This document shows, one piece after another, positions 2,692-22,785 of a stretch of 22,785 bases of DNA (its first letter is position 1; each line of letters starts with the position of its first letter). The DNA lies in IMG/VR virus record IMGVR_UViG_3300035216_000941, positions 1-22,785 of that record; one strand, given 5' to 3'. Below the pieces are notes generated by a model. That model had not been told where the DNA came from, searched no databases, and worked only from the letters and a program-made list of their open reading frames with translations. Made by a program: the position numbers and the translations under genes. This DNA is from a virus.

Positions 2692-3579
2692 TTAGTGTGC
2701 CGAGGGCTTCAAACGACTAGGAGGATAAGGATAGTTGTACTCAACTATATTATTGAAATCAACTGTTAAATTTGTCGTGGGATTTGAGATCGATCCGTAA
2801 TCGCTTGAATACCCAAAGTTCGGGACATTAGCCCCATAGTTCCATCCTTTGAACAATTTCTTTTTAAAAGAAAATTTATATTCGTATGTGTATTCTGTCT
2901 TAAACTCATACCTAAAGACATCAGAATTTCTTGGGAAAACCTCATGGGTTGAGGGTAACGAGCTAACAGTAACAGGTGCCAGAGTGTCAGGGTCTACTAC
3001 TTTTAAAGGTGTATTGATAGTAGCTTCGTATAACCCTAGATCTGGGGTTTCCGGATAGCTTGACTCTCCTGTATCAAAGTTTCCGCCATCGTATGACTGC
3101 AATAATGCCGCACTACCTCCGATTACGAAATCACCGCCATCACTTGAGACTCCTCCTAGACTTTCTCCGGAATCAAAATCACCACCATCTACCTCTTCTG
3201 TGGGCTCAAGCTGAATAGTTATTGGCAGCCAGTTATACAGCATCGACTGAGTCTCACCTTGAGAATCATACGCAAAGTAGTCAAAATTTAAACGTATAGA
3301 CACGTCTGATGCATTGGCGTCCCAAACCAGCAGTCCCAAAGCGATATCCGCTTTGCTTATTTGCGTTGGGATTGCGTTGTTGCGACTATCAAGAATAGTA
3401 ACGCCATTTAGCTTCAATGTTCCGTAATCTGGAGGCGTATCTACTTCAATGTACACACATCTACTAGGCAGATTTAAATCATTAACAGTAAGTGGAACGA
3501 ATCCAGTACTGTCAACATCTCGAACATAAGAATAATGATACTTGTCTGGATCGTAGACCAAGTTAGTGGTATAAGTCAT
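2692..3579 (-). CDS. Tail-tip protein with cadherin-like N-terminal domain and Gly/Asp repeats
   Basis: This 295-residue protein has three visible parts. Residues about 25-115 follow the cadherin-like pattern P-x-x-G-T-L-x-L-N-G-V, then Q-I-S-K-A-D-I-A-L-G-L-L, then F-x-Y-F-A-Y-D-S-Q-G. This beta-sandwich type is common in bacterial surface adhesins. A low-complexity linker at about 132-175 holds three copies of D-G-G-(D/N)-F followed by Gly/Ser. The C-terminus is rich in Tyr, Asn and Pro. The ATG overlaps the stop of the 1436-residue protein by 4 bases, indicating coupled translation. I infer a tail-tip or receptor-contact role; the exact family is unknown to me. Confidence 0.8.
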   Translation of the reverse strand: MTYTTNLVYDPDKYHYSYVRDVDSTGFVPLTVNDLNLPSRCVYIEVDTPPDYGTLKLNGVTILDSRNNAIPTQISKADIALGLLVWDANASDVSIRLNFDYFAYDSQGETQSMLYNWLPITIQLEPTEEVDGGDFDSGESLGGVSSDGGDFVIGGSAALLQSYDGGNFDTGESSYPETPDLGLYEATINTPLKVVDPDTLAPVTVSSLPSTHEVFPRNSDVFRYEFKTEYTYEYKFSFKKKLFKGWNYGANVPNFGYSSDYGSISNPTTNLTVDFNNIVEYNYPYPPSRLKPSAH

Positions 3580-6500
3580 GATGTGTAACCAATTAAGTTA
3601 AGGGAAACGATCATGTTGTATGGATCGAAGCCCCAGGTGGTGGAAGTTGTGTAATACTTGCCTTGCGTCTTGCCTTTAGATGTAACCGAAACGGGCATTC
3701 CAGGAGTCCAGCTAAATAGTTCTGGTCGCATTGTTTCTACGACTCTGACAGCATTCCCCCTAAGACTGTGACGACGAGCCTCATGGCCCATATAGACGCT
3801 GCACAGCCTCTCTATAGAAGCAAGCCTTGTACTGGCGGCTTCTCGGTACGTTGATCCTATGACGTTGCAGTCTCCTCTATCCATGAACAACGGATCTCCA
3901 AACTGATCAAGAGTCAAGGCTGTCAGGCTTTCTGGGATGAGGGGTAAGAATGGCAGAGGGAAGCTAACTTCCTCCGAGCCTCCTACATTAATTGAAGCAA
4001 TTTCAGTCTGATTACCACTAACTGTAACACTTAAATTAATCGTATAACTCTCTGTTTCTATGTTACATGGACTCAGTCTTTGTCCAGATCTAAAGCCTTG
4101 ACTAGGATCCCGGTCATCCAAATCTGCATATCCAGGAATATCATCACCATCAGCATCAGGATCGCTGCTATTTAATATGCCATCCCCATCTAAATCAGAA
4201 TCTTGGAAGTCAGGAATGCCATCTCCGTCAGTGTCTACGTCAAAGACTAAAGGCCTGGGATCGCTAGTGTTAGGAAGAGCGTCTCCATCAATATTAGGGT
4301 CTACAATATCTAAAATACCATCTCCGTCTAAATCATCTTCATCTGCAGTTGATGGATTTGGATCATCTACATTAAGTACTCCGTCTCCATCCATGTCATC
4401 ATCTTCATAATCAAATAATCCATCTTCGTCAATATCTCCTGCGACAACAAGCGGATCAGGGTCGGCACCATTCAGCAGGCCATCTCCGTCGATATCGGGG
4501 TCTTCAAAGTCATACAGGCCGTCCCCATCCGTGTCATAATCAAACACAAGAGGATTTGGGTCTACAGTATCTTCTAGGCCATCTCCGTCATCGTCAGTAT
4601 CAGTAGCGTCAACTGTTCCGTCATCGTCAGTATCAGTGAATGAATTCTTAGGATTGGGGTCGTTTGCATTGGCAAGCCCATCCGCGTCCATGTCAGGATC
4701 GTTCGCATTGCTAGCCCCATCACCATCTATGTCAGAGTCAAGGTCGTTAATGGTGCCATCGCCATCCATGTCGGGGTCGTCAGCATTCAAGAAACCGTCG
4801 CCGTCTATATCATCGTCTAATTTGTTTATATATCCATCGCCGTCAGTGTCGATAGTGTCTGCTCTCTGCGGTTGGGGATCTAGCTCATTAGGGATCCCAT
4901 CACCGTCAATGTCTGGATCTTCGAAATCGGCTATCTGATCCCCATCAATGTCAGAATCAGCTACCTCAGGCCTCGGGTCACTGTCATTAGGAATTCCATC
5001 ACCGTCAATGTCTGGATCTTCGAAATCATAGAACCCGTCTCCATCTGAATCCAAATCAGGGGTAATAGGATTAGGGTCTTCTTCTTGAGGTGCATTACGA
5101 AGACCATCTCGATCAATATCTTGATCAAAGCGTCTTGGGTTTGGATCGTCTTCGTTCAGGATGTTGTCTCCGTCAATATCTGGGTCTAAATCATCAGTTG
5201 TTCCATCTTCGTCTAAGTCGTAGAATCTTGGGTCGTAAGGAGCATTGCGAGGAGGCGCCTCAGGGGCAGCGGCATTGTCTGTAGACAATACAATATGAGT
5301 AGTATTATTTAATGGATTGTCATAATCAATCTTTGTATTTGTATGTTTGACTGTCCCTACTCCATACTCGTATTCGTCAATACTCTCCTGACGTAAATGT
5401 TGCCTTTTGTATGTACTTAAGCCGGAAACGGAATTATTCGCAAAGCGATTTCTATGCATTATCAACCCTTTGACTACATCAGGGCCTCTATATGCACCCT
5501 CGGATGTAAATATAATTTCTTTTATAGCATCAGTGAGTGGCTTGCCTGTTCCTCCATGTATATAATTTTTTTGTTCTTTCCTGATGACTTCACCCCCCTC
5601 TGCTCCGAAGTACATATCTGTTTTCGTAATATTTGTTAAAACTCTATGGCCTTCCATTTCAGCCAGGAAGGATCTGGCGAAATCATAAAGGCGTCCGCAC
5701 TGAGCTTTAAGTCTCAATAGATTTATCTGAGCGTCGGCCATCATGCAATCATAGAAATCTCTTGCCGCTAACATTTTCCTTACAGTGTCATTGTCTAAAC
5801 ACTCTACTATTATCCTAAACTTCGAAGGGTCGTTATCATCTCGAAGCTGACCGTATTCATTTATCTGGTCACAAACTTCTTGCATACCATTGATACGTAT
5901 TTCATACGCTTCATTTACTTGATCTAAAAATGCAGAGATACTTGACTCAGAAGATCTCCAAACGCTCATATTTTCTAATGTTTTCTCGTGACTTAATTGA
6001 TTTCCAGGGCCTTCATACTCGAATTCTTGGATTTTCTCAACATGATCATCAAAATAATATTCTTCTGTAAACAAAGATCCAGTAGTTTTATAGCCATAGA
6101 CACTTTCTATTGGAAGTATTTTCTCAATATCATCTAGATTTACTTCTGTAGTACATTCCGAACTACCTCCACCGCCTGCCCTTAAAATTGCCTCAGCCTG
6201 TTCACTCCTTATTGTCGGATTGACATAGATTCCACACCTCAGCCCATTGTCTCTTCTATCGACTCCATTATAGACATCAGGATCTTCCCCTACCCCAGGG
6301 AGTCCTTCGGCGTTGTCTAGCCTTTCTAGTTCACTAGGGTCAAATTTTCCTTGTCTCATTTGCAAGCATTCAGAGAAAGGTTTTAATCTTAAGGCCTTAG
6401 TCTGCATAAACATTTTGTCAGACAAAACGTCATCTTTTATCTCGTCAGGATTCTCATCCTCATCCTCTTCCTCATCGTCTGAGACGCAAATTCCGTCGAC

Positions 6501-7886
6501 ACAAGAAAATCCGGTATGACATTGGCTAGACCTTCTGCATTCATCGATTTCGTCTTCTATACAATGACCGTCCACGCAGATAAACCCTTCTTCACAATCA
6601 TCTCCGTCCACACAGTCATTAGGCGATTTTACGCATTGACCATTCACGCATTTCTCATCTTCAGCGCATTCAATGTCCCCATTCGTACAAAATTTCGGGA
6701 GCAAATAGCATTCATTGTCAACACACTGAAAACCTTCACCACAGTCACTTGAGTCTTTGCAATCAACGCTAATGCATTTACCGTTAACGCAAAGGCCACC
6801 TCCTCTGCTGCGACAGTCTCTTTCATCTTCGCATTCAATTTCTACACACGTACCGTCGTCACATAGATAACCAGAAGGGCAGTCGTTCGTAGTGCTGCAA
6901 CTTAATTGCTGACATTTTTTATCAACACAAACAAAATCAGTTGGGCAACTGTTGTCATCTCCACAATACTCGTCTTGGCAAGTCCCGTCGACACAAATGA
7001 ATCCAGTCGGGCAATCGTCGGTTCCAGAACACGGCATTGCCGTGCAAAGACCATTTAAGCAAGTATATCCCTCAGGGCAATCGTCTGTGTCCCCGCATTC
7101 AACTGTTTCACAGAACCCCTCAAGACAAATATCCGCGCCCCTACAGTCCTCCGCACTTACACATTGAGTCGGATCGGTTGCTGTTTCATCCTCGTCGGGG
7201 TCTGTCTCTGGATAGCCCGGAGTCTCAATTTCTTCTGTAAGAGAAAGTGTTGTAGGCGGAATAATTACGTCCTCCAAGTCTTCAACTGATAGGCTCGATC
7301 TTTCTGTCCATGAAGTAAAAGCAGGGTTCGTTAAAAATACTTCTTCCCATCTCTGAACAGTAAATCTACCATGAGCCATATAAGCAAAACTACCTATCGC
7401 CCTTAAGGCGCTATCAAGAGCGTTGAGATCAAAAGTATCTATCTGGCAGACATCTAGAATGCTGTCAATTCCGCTGAGACTTTGTATATAGCCTTTGACC
7501 TCGTCGTTGTCATTTGTTCCGAAATCTTTAATTACGGATAATCGGCAGGCAACCTCAATAGTTACTGACTGAGTCGTAAAATTTCTTTTGATATTTACAA
7601 CATATAAATTGCTACGTGGGTGCTTAGCACAGTGCCCCCCGGCAAAAGATGCACTTATTGTAACAAGATCGCCAAGAGAAAATTTAGATTCTACTATAGG
7701 CTCGCCACCAACGGTATAACCAGCTAACTCAAGAGAACCTGTAGTAAAAACAATACCTCCACTAGTAATGTCGGAGTCGGAGACAGTCCCTCCTATTAAA
7801 TTTTGACTAACATTTTTCCCTCCAATGACTATTTTTGTTTTCTTGTTAGTAGAAACATAAGAAGGCCCTGAGTTGATATTAGTCAT
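3576..7886 (-). CDS. Giant tail hub-like protein with Cys-rich repeats and TSP3-type calcium repeats
   Basis: This 1436-residue protein occupies the hub or tip position after the tape measure gene. Residues 1-235 are beta-rich (I-V-I-G-G-K-N-V-S-Q) and resemble N-terminal domains of tail hub proteins. Residues about 240-468 hold ten Cys-rich units of the form C-x5-C-x-x-G-(Y/F)-x-C-(V/L)-(D/N)-G-x-C, about 40 Cys in all. Residues about 470-885 form an acidic linker and a helical region. Residues about 886-1258 hold about 23 D-x-D-x-D-G-x loops separated by D-P-N-P or D-P-D-I, the pattern of thrombospondin type 3 calcium-binding repeats. The last 175 residues return to a beta pattern (G-M-P-V-S-V-T-S-K-G, then W-G-F-D), as in hub C-termini. 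I read it as a hub with two repeat insertions. It starts 2 bases after the previous stop and overlaps the next gene by 4. The hub assignment is inference; the repeats are directly visible. Confidence 0.85.
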   Translation of the reverse strand: MTNINSGPSYVSTNKKTKIVIGGKNVSQNLIGGTVSDSDITSGGIVFTTGSLELAGYTVGGEPIVESKFSLGDLVTISASFAGGHCAKHPRSNLYVVNIKRNFTTQSVTIEVACRLSVIKDFGTNDNDEVKGYIQSLSGIDSILDVCQIDTFDLNALDSALRAIGSFAYMAHGRFTVQRWEEVFLTNPAFTSWTERSSLSVEDLEDVIIPPTTLSLTEEIETPGYPETDPDEDETATDPTQCVSAEDCRGADICLEGFCETVECGDTDDCPEGYTCLNGLCTAMPCSGTDDCPTGFICVDGTCQDEYCGDDNSCPTDFVCVDKKCQQLSCSTTNDCPSGYLCDDGTCVEIECEDERDCRSRGGGLCVNGKCISVDCKDSSDCGEGFQCVDNECYLLPKFCTNGDIECAEDEKCVNGQCVKSPNDCVDGDDCEEGFICVDGHCIEDEIDECRRSSQCHTGFSCVDGICVSDDEEEDEDENPDEIKDDVLSDKMFMQTKALRLKPFSECLQMRQGKFDPSELERLDNAEGLPGVGEDPDVYNGVDRRDNGLRCGIYVNPTIRSEQAEAILRAGGGGSSECTTEVNLDDIEKILPIESVYGYKTTGSLFTEEYYFDDHVEKIQEFEYEGPGNQLSHEKTLENMSVWRSSESSISAFLDQVNEAYEIRINGMQEVCDQINEYGQLRDDNDPSKFRIIVECLDNDTVRKMLAARDFYDCMMADAQINLLRLKAQCGRLYDFARSFLAEMEGHRVLTNITKTDMYFGAEGGEVIRKEQKNYIHGGTGKPLTDAIKEIIFTSEGAYRGPDVVKGLIMHRNRFANNSVSGLSTYKRQHLRQESIDEYEYGVGTVKHTNTKIDYDNPLNNTTHIVLSTDNAAAPEAPPRNAPYDPRFYDLDEDGTTDDLDPDIDGDNILNEDDPNPRRFDQDIDRDGLRNAPQEEDPNPITPDLDSDGDGFYDFEDPDIDGDGIPNDSDPRPEVADSDIDGDQIADFEDPDIDGDGIPNELDPQPQRADTIDTDGDGYINKLDDDIDGDGFLNADDPDMDGDGTINDLDSDIDGDGASNANDPDMDADGLANANDPNPKNSFTDTDDDGTVDATDTDDDGDGLEDTVDPNPLVFDYDTDGDGLYDFEDPDIDGDGLLNGADPDPLVVAGDIDEDGLFDYEDDDMDGDGVLNVDDPNPSTADEDDLDGDGILDIVDPNIDGDALPNTSDPRPLVFDVDTDGDGIPDFQDSDLDGDGILNSSDPDADGDDIPGYADLDDRDPSQGFRSGQRLSPCNIETESYTINLSVTVSGNQTEIASINVGGSEEVSFPLPFLPLIPESLTALTLDQFGDPLFMDRGDCNVIGSTYREAASTRLASIERLCSVYMGHEARRHSLRGNAVRVVETMRPELFSWTPGMPVSVTSKGKTQGKYYTTSTTWGFDPYNMIVSLNLIGYTS
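4897..5027 (-). repeat. Exact 32-bp direct repeat inside the TSP3 coding region
   Basis: The 32 bases at 4897-4928 recur identically at 4996-5027. The 99-base period is a whole number of codons (33 residues, about two calcium loops). Neighbouring loops differ by many silent changes, so this pair looks like a recent in-frame duplication or a gene-conversion tract, showing how the repeat array could grow and shrink. Confidence 0.85.
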
Positions 7887-8302: not shown

Positions 8303-11300
8303 AGCCTTCCTCCTCTTCTTGCTTTCATGATATTAATGTCAGTCAGAAGCTTGCTGGCATCCATTACTGGAGATTGACTTTGTATTGTTACATTATTAGT
8401 AATTCTCTGGGTATCACCTCCTTTCATCATTGACCCCATTTGCTTAATTAGTGTTCCAGAAGGAACTATTCCAGTAACCCCTTGCGACTCTCTAGCCGGC
8501 TTAGCAGACCGTGTCGCTGCAGTGATAGATGCATTAATTTTTTGGTTTTTAATAAGCGTGCTTGTGTCGTTAGCATTTAGGACATATCCAGATTTTGGAG
8601 CCCTCCACTTAACGTTTCTAGCAGCAGGGAGAAGCGAAACCTTCCCTGAAGTGTCAACGAACGACTCTCGGCCTCCTCCATCATTAACCTTGTAGGTAGC
8701 ACCACCAGTAACTGGACCGCCAGTCGCCCTGGAGCCGAAGGGGACGCCTTCCATCGCGGTTTTCAAGCTATTGGTTGCACTAATAGCTTTGCTGATATTT
8801 TTTAGAGAGTTCTCAGAATCAGTCCCCATTTTTTGGATGGCTGTACTTGTATTTCCAAACTCTGTATTCAGTTTTTGAACGTTGCCCTGCACATTAGAAA
8901 GGCCAGCATTCATTGTGTTGACGGATTCGCCAAGAGCGGCTTTCACCTTTTTCACATCTAATCCAAAGAAGTTTTGGTCAATAGCTTGTCCGTCTGTAGC
9001 GAGTTTCTCTGCACCAGTCTGCAATGCCTTGACAGAAGCTTGAACCTCTTTCTTGCTTGCTGCTCCGGCATCTTTAATGTTGTCTAAGCCCTGCTGGCCA
9101 ATGCTCTCAACGTCACGCAAAGCTTCTATAGTCCCACTGCCCATCTCGTTAAGGGAACTCCGCAGGTCGCCGCCAATGTTTTGAACAAAGTTTTTAATGT
9201 CAGTTAAATTACTCTTTGGAACTAAATTAGTTGGCTGAATACCTGCTGCTTTAAGTCTTGTATTTAAAGCTTGTTGGGCTTGTGAAACTTGTAGTTCAGC
9301 CGCAAAGTTTTCCACCCTAAACATTTGTGCATTCGCTTTCGAAAGCGTTTCAGTCATTCCTATTACTTTTTGCAGCGCCTGAATCCTGGCTTGATTCTGT
9401 ACAGTTGCAGGCTCGGCTTTTAGCATTGCTATTTGAGCCTGAGTCTCCAGGCTTATCATCTCCAACTTGTGCTGCTTCTCAGCCTGCTGAACCTGCCTTT
9501 TGATTTTATCAATTTCAAATTGCAACTCAAACATATCCTTCTCAAGCCTCAAGGCATCGTCTAAGATGCTTTTATCACCTGTAACCAAAAATTCAATTGT
9601 AGCAGCCTTATTTATGGCGGTCTTAAATGTATCAAAAGCAGAAGTGATCCCTGAGGTTAAGTCGTTGAAGCCACCTTTTTGTAGGTCTTTAAGTTTGCTA
9701 TAGCTCTGGATAAGTGTATCATTTTCTTGCTTAACTTCTTTAATCCTGTCGAGCATAGCTTTGCTCAATTCTTGCTCAGCAGCTTGGGCTTCTTTCGCTG
9801 CAGCGACTCGATCGGCGCCTAGTTCCCGAGCTCGGGTTCTCAAAGCAACTACATCTTGGTTGCTTTCAGCCTGACGTTTGAAGTTGAGATCTATCTCCTT
9901 TTGGATGGCGTCTAAGTTAGATTTTGCGGCAGCTTCTCTAATAGCTGCATTCCTTACTGCTAATTGCCCTTCGGTTATTAAACCTTGATTAAGTTTTTCT
10001 TGTCCTGCTGCTCCTAAGGCGGCTGTTACTGCCTCTAGTTTTTGCTTTCTCGTTTCTAATGCTTTGTTAGAAGCTTCAAGTTTTTCTGTTAGCGTTCCTT
10101 CGCCGTCCACTGCTGTGTGAATTATTCCGGTGAAACGTCGGGTGCCGTCCATCGCAATTTCTATTGCTGCTGCCTTCTCTAAGAAGGCATCCTTCTGCCT
10201 CTCTAATTGCTGGACTTCTTGTACATTAACGTTGCCTGCTGCTTTCATCTTATCTATCTGCTGCTGCAACGCGCCAGCCTGAGCTTCTAAGCTAGTTTTT
10301 ACAGCACCCGATCCTTTCCTGAATTTCACAAGATCTTCTGCTGACATCTTTGCAATCTTGCCGTAGTCTAAGAAGCTTTGAGCTCCCTTTTTGTCAAGAA
10401 AATCACTAAGCCCTTTTAGCTGCTTTTGGTTTTGTGCCATGGCATCTTCAAAAGCTCGTTCCCTCCCAAATCTTTTTATACCAGAAACTAAAGAACCAAT
10501 CCCCTGTATTAATTGACGAGCAAAAGGTATTACGCTTATAAACCCATCCTTCAACCTTTCTACAAAGGTAGTAGCCTTTTCTGATTCAATTCCTAGCGAC
10601 TTGAGAGTGCTCTCAGACTCTTTGATAGGCTTAATTAACGCTCCTATTGATTTCTGATATTCATTAAACGCGAGGGCGCCTGCGGCGGCGGCCAAGCCAA
10701 CGACAGCAAAGGCACCTAGACCTGCCGCTCCTATTCCAACTATCGCAGCCTTAGCACCGAGTGCCGCAGCTTTTATGCCGGCGCTCTTGGCGGCGAGCAA
10801 TTTAGCACTGGCGGCTGCTGCCTCATATTTCTTAGCACCAGCATCTCCTGCTACTGGGGCGGCTGCTTTTTTTCTTAGGTCGATAAGACCCTTCAACTTG
10901 GAAGGGAAGTCACCTAATAAACCCTTAGATGTCGCTTTACCTAAACTCCTAAAGGATTGAGTCAATCCGTTAAAAAATCCAGAAACATCTCCCTTTATTA
11001 ATTCAAGAAGCGAACCTTTTAATTGTTTAACTGATATTCTAAACAACTGAAGAGTTTTATTGCCATTCCCTATAGACTCAGCCATCTTGTCATTGACCTT
11101 CGTGAAGGCAATACTTGCTAGTCTTAAAGCAACTAGAGGCGCAAGAATCGCCGCGAGCGGTCCAGCTAAATTAGAGAATGCTTGAACTAATGGTCCTAAA
11201 GGGGCCAATATAGTCCCTAAAGCTTTAGCTAAACCTATGAACAATTTCCCAAGATTTTTTATTGCTCCAGCAATACTGTTAAAAGCATTTATTAACGCTT

Positions 11301-14639: not shown

Positions 14640-14663
14640 AGCCTCTTAATTTGGCCAAGAGAT

Positions 14664-15029
14664 ATGGCTAAAGATTACCTTTACAACCTAGAGGCTATGA
14701 ATTCAAAAGATGCTAAAAGGCTTTGGAGAAAAGCGATTAGAGAGGCCTGGAACAACCAATGCGCTTACTGTGGAGCAACTCCAATAGATTCAAAAAGTTT
14801 AACTCTTGACCATGTTAAGCCCAAATGTAAAGGAGGCGAGGATGTAACCAAAAATTGTATTCCAGCATGTCGGAGTTGCAATGCAAACAAAGGCAGCGAA
14901 AACTGGATTGCATGGTTCAGAATGCAACCATTTTACTCAATGGAGACAGAGATTCTGATCAAAGAGTGGCTTCGTACTGGAAGAATTGGCTCTTACCATT
15001 ACGAAACTTTTTACGAAAGAGTTAGCTAA
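14664..15029 (+). CDS. HNH homing-type endonuclease
   Basis: This 121-residue protein carries a zinc-bound HNH nuclease core: C-A-Y-C at 33-36, L-D-H at 48-50 (catalytic His), P-K-x-K-G-G, an Asn at 64, C-R-S-C at 69-72 and N-x-N-K at 73-76. Such small HNH proteins cut double-stranded DNA and often spread as selfish genes in phages. It is the only plus-strand gene in the tail operon and sits between the chaperone gene and the tail terminator gene, so late mRNA would be antisense to it. I chose the ATG at 14664 because an AAGAG lies just upstream; the frame is open back to 14547. Its 3' end overlaps the chaperone 3' end by 8 bases, tail to tail. Both flanking genes are intact, so it is free-standing rather than inside an intron. 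Confidence 0.9.
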   Translation: MAKDYLYNLEAMNSKDAKRLWRKAIREAWNNQCAYCGATPIDSKSLTLDHVKPKCKGGEDVTKNCIPACRSCNANKGSENWIAWFRMQPFYSMETEILIKEWLRTGRIGSYHYETFYERVS

Positions 15030-16817: not shown

Positions 16818-17321
16818 TTAATTAAGTATTTCTGCAGCAGTTAGTTGTAATTGTAGTCCGATACTTGGATAGATAATTTTGTCTATACCTTCTCCCCCAA
16901 AGACTCCAGTACACCTTTGAATAGTTGCTCTCATCTCCTCGGCTCCAAAGAAAAGATCAACTTCCTTCATTGGCTGAAAATAGCTTTGATTTGTACTTAT
17001 GTCGGTCATACTGGACTGCACTAAATCCATCGAAGTCCAGTCATCATCTGCTGCTATAGCCACATACTGCAGTGCATATCCTCTGTAGTAAAACTCATCG
17101 GCACTCGCGCCTGGAAGCATTTCCCCAAACAGTTCAGAGGCTAATGGGATCTTTCTTGATCCAGAGGTCACCCCAGAATATTGAGTTCTTTTTAAATAAC
17201 AAACAACTAAATAGTAGCTCGTATCATTAACAGTCAATCGACCGTTTGCGTCTCTTACTACTACATCGGTTATATTTACCCTGACTCGGGAATTGGCATA
17301 TGCTAATAGAGGACTGGCCAT
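16818..17321 (-). CDS. Putative head-tail connector or head-closure protein
   Basis: This 167-residue beta-rich protein comes immediately before the gp10-like gene, where siphoviruses place head-closure or stopper proteins. It has no Cys pairs or membrane segments; one segment reads Y-Y-L-V-V-C-Y-L-K-R, and the C-terminus ends L-Q-L-Q-L-T-A-A-E-I. I chose the ATG at 17321; a GTG two codons earlier (17327) is also possible, and neither has a strong ribosome site. The functional call is from gene order only. Confidence 0.7.
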   Translation of the reverse strand: MASPLLAYANSRVRVNITDVVVRDANGRLTVNDTSYYLVVCYLKRTQYSGVTSGSRKIPLASELFGEMLPGASADEFYYRGYALQYVAIAADDDWTSMDLVQSSMTDISTNQSYFQPMKEVDLFFGAEEMRATIQRCTGVFGGEGIDKIIYPSIGLQLQLTAAEILN

Positions 17322-17354
17322 GATCACACGATGCCTAGTCTATTTTTCCAAATT

Positions 17355-20467: not shown

Positions 20468-20869
20468 TTAAGATCTATAAGTTACTGACCCTATATTACC
20501 AGTACTTGATCCAATAATGTTCGAAAATGCAAATACTTTTTGTAATTCACCCACAATCCTAGCCTTTTCTTTCAATATAGTCGCATATTTTCCGCCATTC
20601 TCTTTCTCAAACTCCAATACATCAGCCTTTACTAGCATCTTTCCCGCTTCATCCTCATGCCCAGCCTTCTTTTGATGCAACATCGCAGTGTCATACTCCC
20701 CTAATAATACTCGTACTACTGTCACTTGAGTTGATGCAATAGCCCCTAGCTCATTACATCCAATCGTCATCTCATTTAACGTATATCGACTGAATCCTAC
20801 CCCTAATGCTAATAATATCCTCTCCACATCTCCCCCCACCCATCCTAAACTAAGATCTAAACTCGCCAT
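20468..20869 (-). CDS. Hypothetical protein, 133 residues
   Basis: This protein is largely helical. The N-terminal part reads L-G-W-V-G-G-D-V-E-R-I, and the middle has a charged helical stretch (residues about 65-110, rich in Lys and Glu). The C-terminus is a Ser/Gly-rich tail (G-S-S-T-G-N-I-G-S-V-T). There are no membrane helices and only one Cys. An AAAGG lies about 9 bases before the ATG. Its mRNA is purine-rich, as is usual for coding strands, in contrast to the tract immediately to the right. It starts a two-gene unit with the zinc-ribbon-like gene. Function unknown. Confidence 0.72.
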   Translation of the reverse strand: MASLDLSLGWVGGDVERILLALGVGFSRYTLNEMTIGCNELGAIASTQVTVVRVLLGEYDTAMLHQKKAGHEDEAGKMLVKADVLEFEKENGGKYATILKEKARIVGELQKVFAFSNIIGSSTGNIGSVTYRS

Positions 20870-21447: not shown

Positions 21448-21476
21448 TTGACATACTCTCTTTGCTTACTCATGAT
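21448..21476 (+). promoter_or_regulatory. Promoter-like site running into repeat copy 1
   Basis: TTGACA at 21448-21453 and CATGAT at 21471-21476 are 17 bases apart. The -10 lies at the left edge of repeat copy 1, so a transcript from here would carry most of the repeat in its 5' leader and then reach the secreted-protein gene at 21569. Confidence 0.55.
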
Positions 21477-21518
21477 CGTGAGCAACCGTCAGGTATGCCA
21501 GTCACTATCGCACTTGCT
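21471..21518 (+). repeat. Cassette repeat, copy 1
   Basis: This is the most diverged copy, sharing GAGCAACCGTC and a distal GCCAGTCACT block with the others. Compared with copy 3 it has GTG in place of GCG and AGGTATG in place of GGGTTCG. It can form a hairpin with ACC/GGT and flanking CGT/ATG pairs. It precedes the secreted-protein gene. Confidence 0.8.
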
Positions 21519-21568
21519 CCATAGCTATCGACATGCTACGATCTACACATCACCAAGGGAACCATCCC

Positions 21569-21847
21569 ATGAACCACTCACTCCTCCCCTCCTGCCTGTC
21601 TGTCGCTGCAGTATTTTCTGCAGTAATTATTTCTGGCTCCTTAATTAATTCTGCCAGCGAGAAGTATGTAGCCTCAAGTAAGCTCGACCACCTCGCTACA
21701 TGGTGTGATGCTGGCCAAGAGAACGCATGCGCAGCACTCTCCAATGCTACAGAAGGACAGTGTGCCTCTCCCTCTGGCCAAGGTGGTTGTCGTTACGACA
21801 GCAACACCCACAGCACGACACACTCTATCCGTGGAGCCTTCCGCTAG
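21569..21847 (+). CDS. Small secreted Cys-rich protein
   Basis: This 92-residue protein has an N-terminal signal-like segment: a short polar start, a hydrophobic core at about residues 8-23 (S-V-A-A-V-F-S-A-V-I-I) and a possible cleavage after S-A-S near residue 30. The mature part has four Cys in about 30 residues (W-C-D-A-G-Q, A-C-A-A-L, Q-C-A-S-P and G-C-R-Y-D), likely two disulfides, and a Ser/Thr/His-rich tail. I chose the ATG at 21569 because AAGGGA lies 8 bases upstream and the same leader is used by the gene at 22054. It lies between repeat copies 1 and 2. The role is unknown; export to periplasm or membrane is the only inference. Confidence 0.78.
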   Translation: MNHSLLPSCLSVAAVFSAVIISGSLINSASEKYVASSKLDHLATWCDAGQENACAALSNATEGQCASPSGQGGCRYDSNTHSTTHSIRGAFR

Positions 21848-21861
21848 AGCCCGCCCTTAGC

Positions 21862-21911
21862 GTGCTCGTGAGCAACCGTCGGGTACGCCGGCCAGTCACT
21901 CTCACACTAGT
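21862..21911 (+). repeat. Cassette repeat, copy 2
   Basis: It shares GTGAGCAACCGTC with copy 1 and GAGCAACCGTCGGGT with copies 3 and 4. A 4-base insertion (GCCGGCC in place of GCC) lies before the AGTCACT block. CGT/ACG pairs flank the ACC/GGT stem. It begins 14 bases after the stop of the secreted-protein gene. Confidence 0.82.
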
Positions 21912-21931
21912 ACACCTGTACTTCTCGTCCG

Positions 21932-21960
21932 TTGACACCACTCTCTGCATCCAATGATAT
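21932..21960 (+). promoter_or_regulatory. Promoter-like site between copy 2 and the next gene
   Basis: TTGACA at 21932-21937 is spaced 17 bases from TGATAT at 21955-21960. The stretch between them (ACTCTCT, then GC) resembles that of the promoter-like site before copy 1, so the two may share ancestry. A second TTGACA lies further downstream. Confidence 0.45.
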
Positions 21961-21997
21961 GGTGTAGCATATAGCACACAGAAAAGTAAATTATGGG

Positions 21998-22027
21998 TTG
22001 ACAGAACTGCTGCATGGGATCTATTGT
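21998..22027 (+). promoter_or_regulatory. Promoter-like site for the 94-residue gene
   Basis: TTGACA at 21998-22003 and TATTGT at 22022-22027 are 18 bases apart. The predicted start is about 20 bases before the ATG at 22054, leaving room for the AAGGGA ribosome site. Confidence 0.5.
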
Positions 22028-22053
22028 GGAGAAGTCCACAAGGGAACTATCCC

Positions 22054-22338
22054 ATGACCAACCTCATCGAATCCATCACCAACAACCCAATCGCTGACTC
22101 AATTCATGACTGGCACTATGAGGCCATGGCATGGCTTGAAGATCACGGCGTTCCGGTGATCCTTACAGAGGATCTCTACCACGTTGACAGGGCCTGGTAT
22201 GGAATCCTCTACGCCAACAAATGCGGCGACCTTAACCCCATTAAGGAACTGGCCAACTGCTTTGACATGTTCGGTGGGCCTCGTGGCACCTGGCATGAGC
22301 TAACAGCGGAGATCGAAACTAACAGAGGAGACTACTAA
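22054..22338 (+). CDS. Small soluble protein in cassette array, 94 residues
   Basis: The protein begins M-T-N-L-I-E-S-I-T-N-N-P and looks alpha/beta and acidic. It has several aromatic landmarks (D-W-H-Y-E-A-M-A-W-L-E-D, then R-A-W-Y-G-I-L-Y), two Cys and no signal peptide. AAGGGA lies 8 bases before the ATG within the shared leader ending ATCCCATGA. A strong terminator with a TTCG loop follows its TAA by only 5 bases. It sits between repeat copies 2 and 3. Codon use is richer in G and C than in the tail genes, suggesting a different origin. Function unknown. Confidence 0.82.
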   Translation: MTNLIESITNNPIADSIHDWHYEAMAWLEDHGVPVILTEDLYHVDRAWYGILYANKCGDLNPIKELANCFDMFGGPRGTWHELTAEIETNRGDY

Positions 22339-22343
22339 AACTC

Positions 22344-22367
22344 AGGGGCTTCGGCCCCTTTTTTTTT
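22344..22367 (+). terminator. Strong intrinsic terminator with TTCG loop
   Basis: AGGGGC-TTCG-GCCCCT is followed by a run of nine T. It lies 5 bases after the stop of the 94-residue gene, which is therefore a single-gene transcription unit. Confidence 0.93.
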
Positions 22368-22378
22368 GTCAACTCTTC

Positions 22379-22396
22379 TTGTATCGAATGATACAA
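22379..22396. repeat. Perfect 18-bp hairpin palindrome
   Basis: TTGTATC and GATACAA flank a GAAT loop. A similar ATCCAATGATA lies at about 21950-21959 beside copy 2, so the motif may be part of the cassette boundary. It could be an operator or a minor hairpin. Confidence 0.6.
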
Positions 22397-22442
22397 CGTG
22401 ACAGTGAGAGATGCGAAAATGCTAGCTGGCATGGTTATAATA

Positions 22443-22480
22443 GTGATCGCGAGCAACCGTCGGGTTCGCCAATCACGCTC
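22443..22480 (+). repeat. Cassette repeat, copy 3
   Basis: The core 22443-22476 is identical to copy 4 over the whole 34 bases. It starts GTGATCGCGAGCAACC and ends CCAATCAC, so the ends GTGAT and ATCAC are inverted. A perfect TATAAT (22436-22441) sits directly before it. Its right end is 10 bases from the stop of the minus-strand gene. Confidence 0.88.
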
Positions 22481-22485
22481 ACTCG

Positions 22486-22710
22486 TCACCTTAGCACAGG
22501 TCGTCCTAGTTCGTCTACTAGTCCTGAGAACCACTGGCTGGTCAGGCTGTAAGCCTCCTTGGCATCGCGCAGTCCTAACCCGACCTCTTTTTTAAACTGC
22601 TTGACTGTATATTCGATCTGGTCCCATGTGATTTCCAGGGATTCCTCTTTCTCGAGAAGTTCTTGATAGGCTTGGAAGATCTCGTCCTTCCTGCTCTTCA
22701 TTGTGATCAT
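22486..22710 (-). CDS. Small charged helical protein in cassette array, 74 residues
   Basis: This protein is rich in Glu and Lys and probably all-helical: F-Q-A-Y-Q-E-L-L-E-K-E-E, then I-E-Y-T-V-K-Q-F-K-K-E-V-G, then L-R-D-A-K-E-A-Y. A GAGGA ribosome site lies 8 bases before the ATG at 22710, in the same ATCCCATGA context used by the other two cassette genes; a second Met is three codons later. It is the only cassette gene on the minus strand and is bracketed exactly by repeat copies 3 and 4. Function unknown; a small regulator is one possibility. Confidence 0.78.
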   Translation of the reverse strand: MITMKSRKDEIFQAYQELLEKEESLEITWDQIEYTVKQFKKEVGLGLRDAKEAYSLTSQWFSGLVDELGRPVLR

Positions 22711-22748
22711 GGGATGAATCCTCTTAGAGTTTGTACGTTGTCAAAGAC

Positions 22749-22785
22749 GTGATCGCGAGCAACCGTCGGGTTCGCCAATCACGAT
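22749..22785 (+). repeat. Cassette repeat, copy 4 (at right edge)
   Basis: The core 22749-22782 is identical to copy 3. The window ends three bases later, so the outer extension cannot be seen. It lies 39 bases upstream of the start of the minus-strand gene. Confidence 0.87.

Follow-up and report, generated by a model that had tools for sequence, protein, structure and literature searches.

An array of small genes between same-direction palindromic repeats, and its probable role in cassette exchange, in S-CBS2-like cyanosiphoviruses

It has long been asked how the small unknown genes in the variable regions of phages are acquired and rearranged, and the question is raised by a locus near the end of the IMG/VR virus record IMGVR_UViG_3300035216_000941 (the whole 22,785-base stretch analyzed here is referred to as the window), where small genes stand singly between copies of a palindromic repeat. 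The answer that we consider probable is that an S-CBS2-like cyanosiphovirus here carries, within its variable region, an array of single-gene cassettes open to exchange, with the repeats serving as crossover points for recombination of an annealing type. The array itself is real, recurs across the phage group and is built like a cassette array. The evidence for shuffling comes from relatives; the window alone proves no movement, and its sister contigs end too early for a comparison.

One repeat, an imperfect palindrome of about 40 bp with the core GAGCAACCGTCNGGTNYGCC, occurs four times in the window (at 21472, 21862, 22443 and 22749, with spacings of 390, 581 and 306). With up to three mismatches allowed, this core has four occurrences in the window vs. 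none in each of 100 shuffled sequences, which bears out the four plus-strand repeats of a preliminary description made from the sequence alone; its one gene per interval is confirmed as well. The same description had copies 3 and 4 as identical, which is correct across 35 nt and fails beyond them (...CACGCT vs. ...CACGAT). The array and its two conserved neighbors are laid out as follows.

16818..17327, minus strand: family A2 gene, homologue of S-CBS2 gp013 ("unknown structural protein"), used as the phage-group anchor
20468..20869, minus strand: family A1 gene, conserved neighbor at the fixed array edge, 36% and 30% identical to its S-CBS2 and S-CRES1 homologues, respectively
21472..21511, plus strand: repeat copy 1, at the array edge beside structural genes; weak match to the repeat model R1 on both strands (18.6 bits minus, 11.9 bits plus)
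21569..21847, plus strand: cassette gene 1 (family B, 92 aa, function unknown)
21862..21905, plus strand: repeat copy 2, where the sister contigs G001 and G002 end; R1 match of 11.7 bits on the plus strand only
22054..22338, plus strand: cassette gene 2 (94 aa, no relative found)
22345..22367, plus strand: intrinsic terminator of gene 2, distinct from the repeat
22443..22482, plus strand: repeat copy 3; R1 matches of 22.8 bits (minus) and 16.2 bits (plus)
22486..22710, minus strand: cassette gene 3 (family C, 74 aa, predicted helical, function unknown)
22749..22785, plus strand: repeat copy 4, cut by the contig end; R1 matches of 13.9 bits (minus) and 11.5 bits (plus)

Judged by similarity, the window is a fragment of an S-CBS2-like cyanosiphovirus: its tape-measure protein matches the Synechococcus phages S-CBS2 and S-CRES1, and the same holds for genes of the head-tail, terminase and replication groups (with G002 supplying what lies outside the window). 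Both isolates have, by annotated positions, a small-gene stretch of ~11 kb between the portal region and the head-tail genes, and the window array starts at the edge of a stretch of this type. A search for the repeat core in other genomes, advised in the preliminary description, yielded by exact patterns of the 20-bp core only two other IMG/VR contigs, the sisters G001 and G002 (96.8 and 99.99% identical to the window over 21.9 kb), both of which end at array copy 2.

More distant relatives were collected with profiles of A1 and A2 run against IMG/VR (the loci used being the best 80 of 82 for A1 and the best 80 of 131 for A2), and a repeat scan of their variable sides found dispersed palindromes of the same design in some of these loci. 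A gapped pattern added more arrays, including one contig with twelve copies of one repeat type (type I) in a row; from its 15 contigs we kept six (L200, L201, L204, L205, L207 and L211) and dropped nine with one match each, two of which (L197 and L203) are without A2. The presence of A2 in 8 of 10 contigs tested assigns those to the same phage group; G011 and G012, each without A2 and with one pattern match, were dropped as chance. From an alignment of 38 repeat copies (A4, consensus GTGATCGTGAACAATGGCCCCnAGGGCCGCTCACGATCAC) we built the model R1, which detects two copies in the isolate S-CRES1 (32280-32319 at 32.7 bits and 32843-32882 at 51.5 bits), as well as copies in 11 of 73 further A1 loci and in 6 of 67 further A2 loci (three of these six, L186, L173 and L193, lie in already counted contigs, and L128 matches both strands about equally). 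Absence from many loci says little because they include little flank on the array side. Uncultured relatives thus have related arrays in the same position, adjoining the head-tail genes, with a two-copy version in S-CRES1 and, to judge from 97.7% identity over the array region, probably in S-CRES2 as well. A scan of genome_contigs returned 24 stretches, each matching once; they come from bacteria and archaea that are unrelated, none titled cyanobacterium, and we read them as chance.

A hand count of contig ends covered 26 IMG/VR contigs with type I or window-type repeats (L128 excluded; two near-identical pairs, the window with G002 and L086 with L089, included): in 20 of these the array-side end is no more than 250 nt from a repeat, and in 14 of the 20 it is within 60 nt or inside a copy. 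Such ends are consistent with assembly breaks at the repeats, which would explain where the window stops. The tendency of contigs to end at repeats could also be taken to favor a chance or assembly artefact, an explanation to which we give practically no credence in view of the 0 of 100 shuffles, the arrays in many contigs and the two copies in the complete isolate genome of S-CRES1.

For comparison we assembled 20 arrays (19 contigs or records), which together contain 99 repeats and 79 intervals of 188–564 nt (median 321). A candidate open reading frame (ORF) is contained in 76 of the 79 intervals, and in 61 the best ORF (one taken per interval, genes per interval being uncounted) has an ATG and a Shine-Dalgarno-like leader, covering a median of 78% of the interval for these 61 genes. 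The usual content between successive same-direction sites is one cassette gene; S-CRES1 has two annotated genes (gp61 and gp62) between its repeats, and a few further intervals, interval 1 of L165 among them, seem to hold two. It is the end of the gene that adjoins the repeat: 46 of the 61 genes have a stop codon that overlaps a repeat or is no more than 15 nt away from one (overlapping in 30, where the stop is commonly the TGA of the repeat's outer arm, an overlap of 4), and a start codon within 15 nt of a repeat is found in none of them. Leaders ending in CC before the ATG precede 40 of the 61 genes, and genes 1 and 2 of the window likewise (AAGGGAACNATCCCATG).

Within each array the copies are direct repeats of one another, and the genes run against the repeat in 36 and along it in 25 of the 61 cases. 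Genes facing either way between repeats of one direction, noted earlier for the window, are also seen across the 20 arrays. The strand preferred by R1 is consistent in all type I arrays scored except the window and L216, its direction being along the structural genes (for G4, by nhmmer). Of five in-array copies in L216, three favor minus (10.2, 4.7 and 2.0 bits) and two favor plus by less than 1 bit; in the window, minus is preferred by 2.4–6.7 bits for copies 1, 3 and 4, and copy 2 matches on plus only. Both arrays seem to be inverted as a whole with respect to A1; for the window this comes from a by-eye comparison with L216, which favors plus against most of the R1 scores, and the orientation of its repeats relative to the family is ambiguous.

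Two other kinds of palindrome were seen along the way. A different, longer one (GTGANCGTGAACnnCCCC...TCACG) occurs once per phage in three phages (L172:6032-6076, L102:1507-1551 and L212:13698-13744), at the array edge beside the structural genes, like a fixed anchor. Near-symmetric palindromes with the same outer arms stand outside arrays (L201:8381-8428 and 8749-8793; L172:1310-1352 and 1990-2033; L212:10240-10279 and 14816-14859), those of L172 and L212 matching R1 on both strands.

Do the genes between the repeats change places? Grouping of ORFs by phmmer (E ≤ 1e-3) gave 16 groups, of which 3, 4, 5 and 9 were set aside by judgement as antisense shadows, and 12 gene families are common to different arrays. 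Family C (FAM1, gene 3 of the window) has members in nine arrays plus one weak member (G4b) and is also present at the contig edge of L159 beside a repeat; it occurs in nine contigs other than the window, always adjoining repeats. An IMG/VR scan with family C alone gave eight loci, four in new contigs, and in all four of these the gene lies between repeats. Gene order differs from array to array: FAM11 precedes FAM1 in G3 and follows it in G5, FAM1 precedes FAM2 in G3 and L220 and follows it in G7 and L221, and FAM10 precedes FAM1 in G3 and follows it in L216. Gene direction differs too, with FAM10 parallel to the repeat in G3 vs. anti in L216, and FAM2, which was grouped by single linkage and may combine two subfamilies, parallel in G4 vs. 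anti elsewhere. FAM16 is shared by an array of type II repeats in L102 and a type I array in L221. Compared between neighboring repeats across relatives, as had been proposed at the outset, the gene content is thus one of the same families in different order, and not one of the same repeats with the same genes in all relatives. Beside these data, two stretches of L221 (5993-6093 and 7468-7568, one inside a family C gene) are 84% identical, which suggests a duplicated cassette.

The proteins themselves disclose little about their roles. Ten cassette proteins gave no Pfam match above the cut-off, and their PHROG matches are all to families of unknown function; gp62 of S-CRES1, annotated as a SAM (S-adenosylmethionine) hydrolase, matches DUF3574 instead, and the AlphaFold model of family C is uninformative (predicted template modeling score, pTM, 0.37). 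Family B (gene 1) has matches in 10 contigs, the window and its sisters excluded; the one in L113 is an open frame (586-885) overlapping the interval between repeats 498-536 and 826-864. Differences between gene 1 of the window (21569-21847) and its sister copy L005:6274-6552 are mostly in the second half (by eye), a mosaic-like distribution. For gene 2, only the self-match falls below E 0.8 in phmmer over the collected loci. None of the three genes has an INPHARED protein match, nor does the family C gene of L172, and no INPHARED DNA match was obtained for the window, L172 or L083 arrays.

At the DNA level, exchange is most directly visible between the contigs L218 and L220, in which three blocks stand in different order: L218 1-607 corresponds to L220 3520-4126 (93.4% identity, starting at the L218 contig end), 819-1227 to 2505-2912 (90.5%) and 1156-1525 to 4050-4420 (91.2%). 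One side of the third block passes a repeat by 37–39 nt; apart from this overrun and the contig end, block edges lie in repeats or within 3 nt of them. A fourth block (78 nt, 85.9%) spans a repeat and ~35 nt beside it. The backbone outside the blocks is 79.2% identical over 4555 bases, as compared to 90.5–93.4% for the cassettes, which suggests a later divergence of the cassettes than of the genomes. Where the second and third blocks adjoin in L218, the repeat shares its left flank with one L220 repeat and its right flank with a different one. Exchange of single cassettes at the repeats is well supported in relatives. Repeats in neighboring positions are also more alike than expected: over 13 arrays with four or more copies, the summed core distance between adjacent repeats is 183 vs. 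271 ± 11.8 after permutation (p 0.0000, 5000 permutations).

On the explanation we favor, a cassette would be a small gene that brings its own leader and stops at, or within, an imperfect palindrome of ~40 bp, and recombination between repeats would allow cassettes to be gained, lost and reordered, the same direction of the repeats keeping exchange from inverting the genome. Homology of ~40 nt is enough for annealing recombination proteins. The likely agents would be the phage's own Sak-like annealing protein, exonuclease and RusA, and the palindrome might additionally be cut, or paused at, as a hairpin. RusA is above cut-off in 6 of 16 records (G002, G003, G004, G013, S-CRES1 and S-CBS2), gp6 of S-CRES1 is an SSAP_Sak annealing protein (8.6e-7), and a PDDEXK-type nuclease adjoins RusA in G002; together, the Sak-like protein, the nuclease and RusA plausibly make up an annealing recombination set. 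The preliminary idea of a gene-capture device based on homologous recombination is in this way partly upheld: the cassettes are supported (by the same-locus arrays, the reordered families and L218/L220), whereas homologous recombination is a step that we infer, and capture of new genes from outside would be a further supposition.

Several observations weigh against this explanation. The G002 homologue of the annealing protein (E 0.0074) is below the Pfam cut-off, and S-CBS2, in which RusA and an annealing-gene homologue are present, yet has no R1 repeat at E ≤ 5. R1 matches to the window repeats are weak (best 22.8 bits, E 0.0007), and most of them favor the strand that the L216-based assignment does not. 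The DNA-level evidence on block edges derives from one pair of metagenome contigs, for which misassembly at repeats is possible, and single arrays vary in the similarity of adjacent repeats (p 0.50 in the window; an opposite trend in G8, p 0.84). Family C runs against the repeat in 9 of 9 clear array members (the window being counted under the L216-based orientation; G4b runs along it), and this near-constant polarity is more order than free shuffling needs. Finally, homology alone does not account for the repeat staying palindromic.

Might the palindrome be read as a folded site? An integron-like system would have a phage or host recombinase, so far unrecognised, acting on the folded palindrome, with unpaired bases setting the direction. 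The asymmetric palindromes of one direction and the ~40-nt unit with, usually, one gene to each are what such a system would display, and the repeat types offer further material. In G4, twelve type I copies are followed by five of type II (e.g., GGAACCTGCGATCAATTGGCCCTGGGGACCGTTCGCAGGTTCC), and L102 has four of type II; core letters are common to both types, and the arms differ yet stay largely complementary. In the joint alignment of types I and II (A7), changes on both sides are observed in 6 of 10 outer pairs, with a covariation score of 0.291 vs. 0.163 ± 0.020 and 0 of 500 shuffles as high. Two of five covariation measures in A7, however, do not exceed shuffles (278 and 500 of 500), the signal is mostly that of one arm switch from type I to type II, and type I arms alone are without covariation (462–490 of 500 shuffles as good, over five measures). 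A rare type II arm variant, CATGCGA, was noticed in L102 (309-354 and 863-903), where it flanks one gene and not both arms of one repeat, as if the arms belonged to the cassette.

The recombinases that an integron-like system calls for were likewise looked for. A tyrosine recombinase (PF00589) was found in 0 of 13 records, mostly fragments (controls 14 of 14), and a serine recombinase (PF00239) in 0 of 17 (controls 13 of 14); the Y1 transposase was found in 0 of 13 phage records (controls 10 of 14), a host enzyme not being searched for. The attC sites of integrons carry the R boxes RYYYAAC and GTTRRRY, and such boxes are present in 0 of 99 repeats with 40-nt flanks (shuffles: mean 0.33, maximum 3). 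The initial remark that neither an integrase nor an attC consensus is visible holds for the records searched, most being fragments. With these results, we regard an integron-like site-specific system as improbable, and the same low likelihood applies to its most specific form, an independently evolved phage analogue of the integron. Its ~40-nt asymmetric hairpins, with interchangeable arms and a common core, would be recognised folded, and a recombinase or junction nuclease (RusA being a candidate) would cut and rejoin single cassettes in a fixed direction. If true, this would mean that viruses trade small genes across lineages.

A role in expression is the other explanation suggested by folding. 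The repeats could be hairpins at gene ends that are retained because they serve expression, as insulators, transcript ends or mRNA stabilisers, with recombination as a by-product, as described for the promoter early stem-loops (PeSLs) of T4-type phages. They do stand at stop codons, and hairpins do form: RNA folds of single copies have z from -0.3 to -3.5 (11 sequences; L213:7573-7616 left out), with -1.6 for window copy 3, although the weakest of these, like window copy 2 among the DNA folds (z -1.67, +0.46, -1.44 and -2.36 for copies 1–4), fold no better than shuffles. A strict terminator pattern in only 2 of 79 intervals leaves room for the repeat to end transcripts; on the other hand, only 12 of 99 repeats have a TTTT within 9 nt, and in the window a separate terminator follows gene 2 ahead of copy 3. 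Promoter-like sites with two hexamers precede 10 of 46 genes (vs. 2.1 ± 1.2 in shuffles), so that each gene may be a unit by itself; no enrichment is seen for the -10 hexamer alone (16 vs. 11.0 ± 2.9), and no promoter fixed to the repeat turned up, promoter-like sites being scored upstream of genes and not relative to the repeat. The direction of the repeat is, moreover, independent of that of the gene (36 anti, 25 parallel), and overall we find gene-end hairpins an unlikely primary explanation. A conserved hairpin with a purely RNA role is unsupported, since type I arms do not covary, and Rfam gave no match at the gathering score in the window, L201, L172 or L212.

Since the repeats are short, palindromic and placed at gene ends, with several to many in an array, they could also be self-spreading elements, like repetitive extragenic palindromes (REPs) or miniature inverted-repeat transposable elements (MITEs), inserting behind the stop codons of resident genes. 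The lack of a Y1 transposase in 13 records, the one direction per array and the movement of genes together with repeats in L218/L220 make this very unlikely.

Among known systems, PeSLs are reportedly mobile regulatory cassettes of T4-type phages, as Arbiol in 2010 and Comeau in 2014 are said to have proposed. One account presents them as stem-loops of a variable genome region to which the shuffling of genes among related phages is ascribed (PMC4503421). PeSLs are the nearest known system in function: a stem-loop in a gene-shuffling region is found here too, but in a siphovirus (by its tape-measure, head-tail and terminase matches to S-CBS2/S-CRES1) and not in a T4-type myovirus, and with repeats at gene ends pointing one way. 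Integrons and clusters of attC sites lacking integron-integrases (CALINs) have been reported in phages, in a source from whose main text the words cyanophage and Synechococcus are absent (PMC9892861). They resemble the present arrays in having one small gene per site, sites of one direction, a stop codon near a foldable palindromic site and, in some cases, possibly no integrase, whereas here the two R boxes are absent (0 of 99), the site is only ~40 bp, genes face both ways and no integrase was found. The array fits neither the PeSL nor the integron/CALIN definition. The start-associated sequences and their extended form (SAS/ESAS) of Cluster K mycobacteriophages are mostly of one orientation and tied to small genes, about half having 17-bp inverted repeats (PMC3203893); they stand at translation starts, unlike the repeats here, which stand at gene ends (0 of 61 with a start nearby). 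REP elements are 20–40 bp imperfect palindromes between genes (PMC3733652), to which the present repeats are alike in size class and position, but without a Y1 transposase (REP-associated tyrosine transposase, RAYT) in 13 records and in an array-like, one-direction layout. No description of these arrays was found in the open-access literature, among the matches listed.

Outside the array, a 1436-aa tail-region protein (3576-7886, minus strand) has long Asp-rich DxDxDG repeat runs (about 4115-5220) as well as cysteine-rich repeats (about 6486-7160), which recall calcium-binding and epidermal growth factor (EGF)-like repeats. An HNH endonuclease gene (14643-15029, plus strand) lies on the opposite strand amid the tail genes, with a homologue at the corresponding place in S-CBS2 and S-CRES1. 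Imperfect internal repeats mark G001:C1:5627-7726 (in L012), possibly tail-fibre genes, where the alignment of G001 and G002 breaks.

As to the initial question of how small variable-region genes are gained and reordered, this locus lets one read directly what is exchanged, where its borders lie and how the arrangement differs among related arrays, and the two-repeat version in cultured S-CRES1 renders the process testable in the laboratory. The repeats would also explain the frequent contig breaks at this locus in these viruses. They provide a handle for finding cassette genes in viromes, among them perhaps (this is a guess) genes for host takeover or counter-defence.

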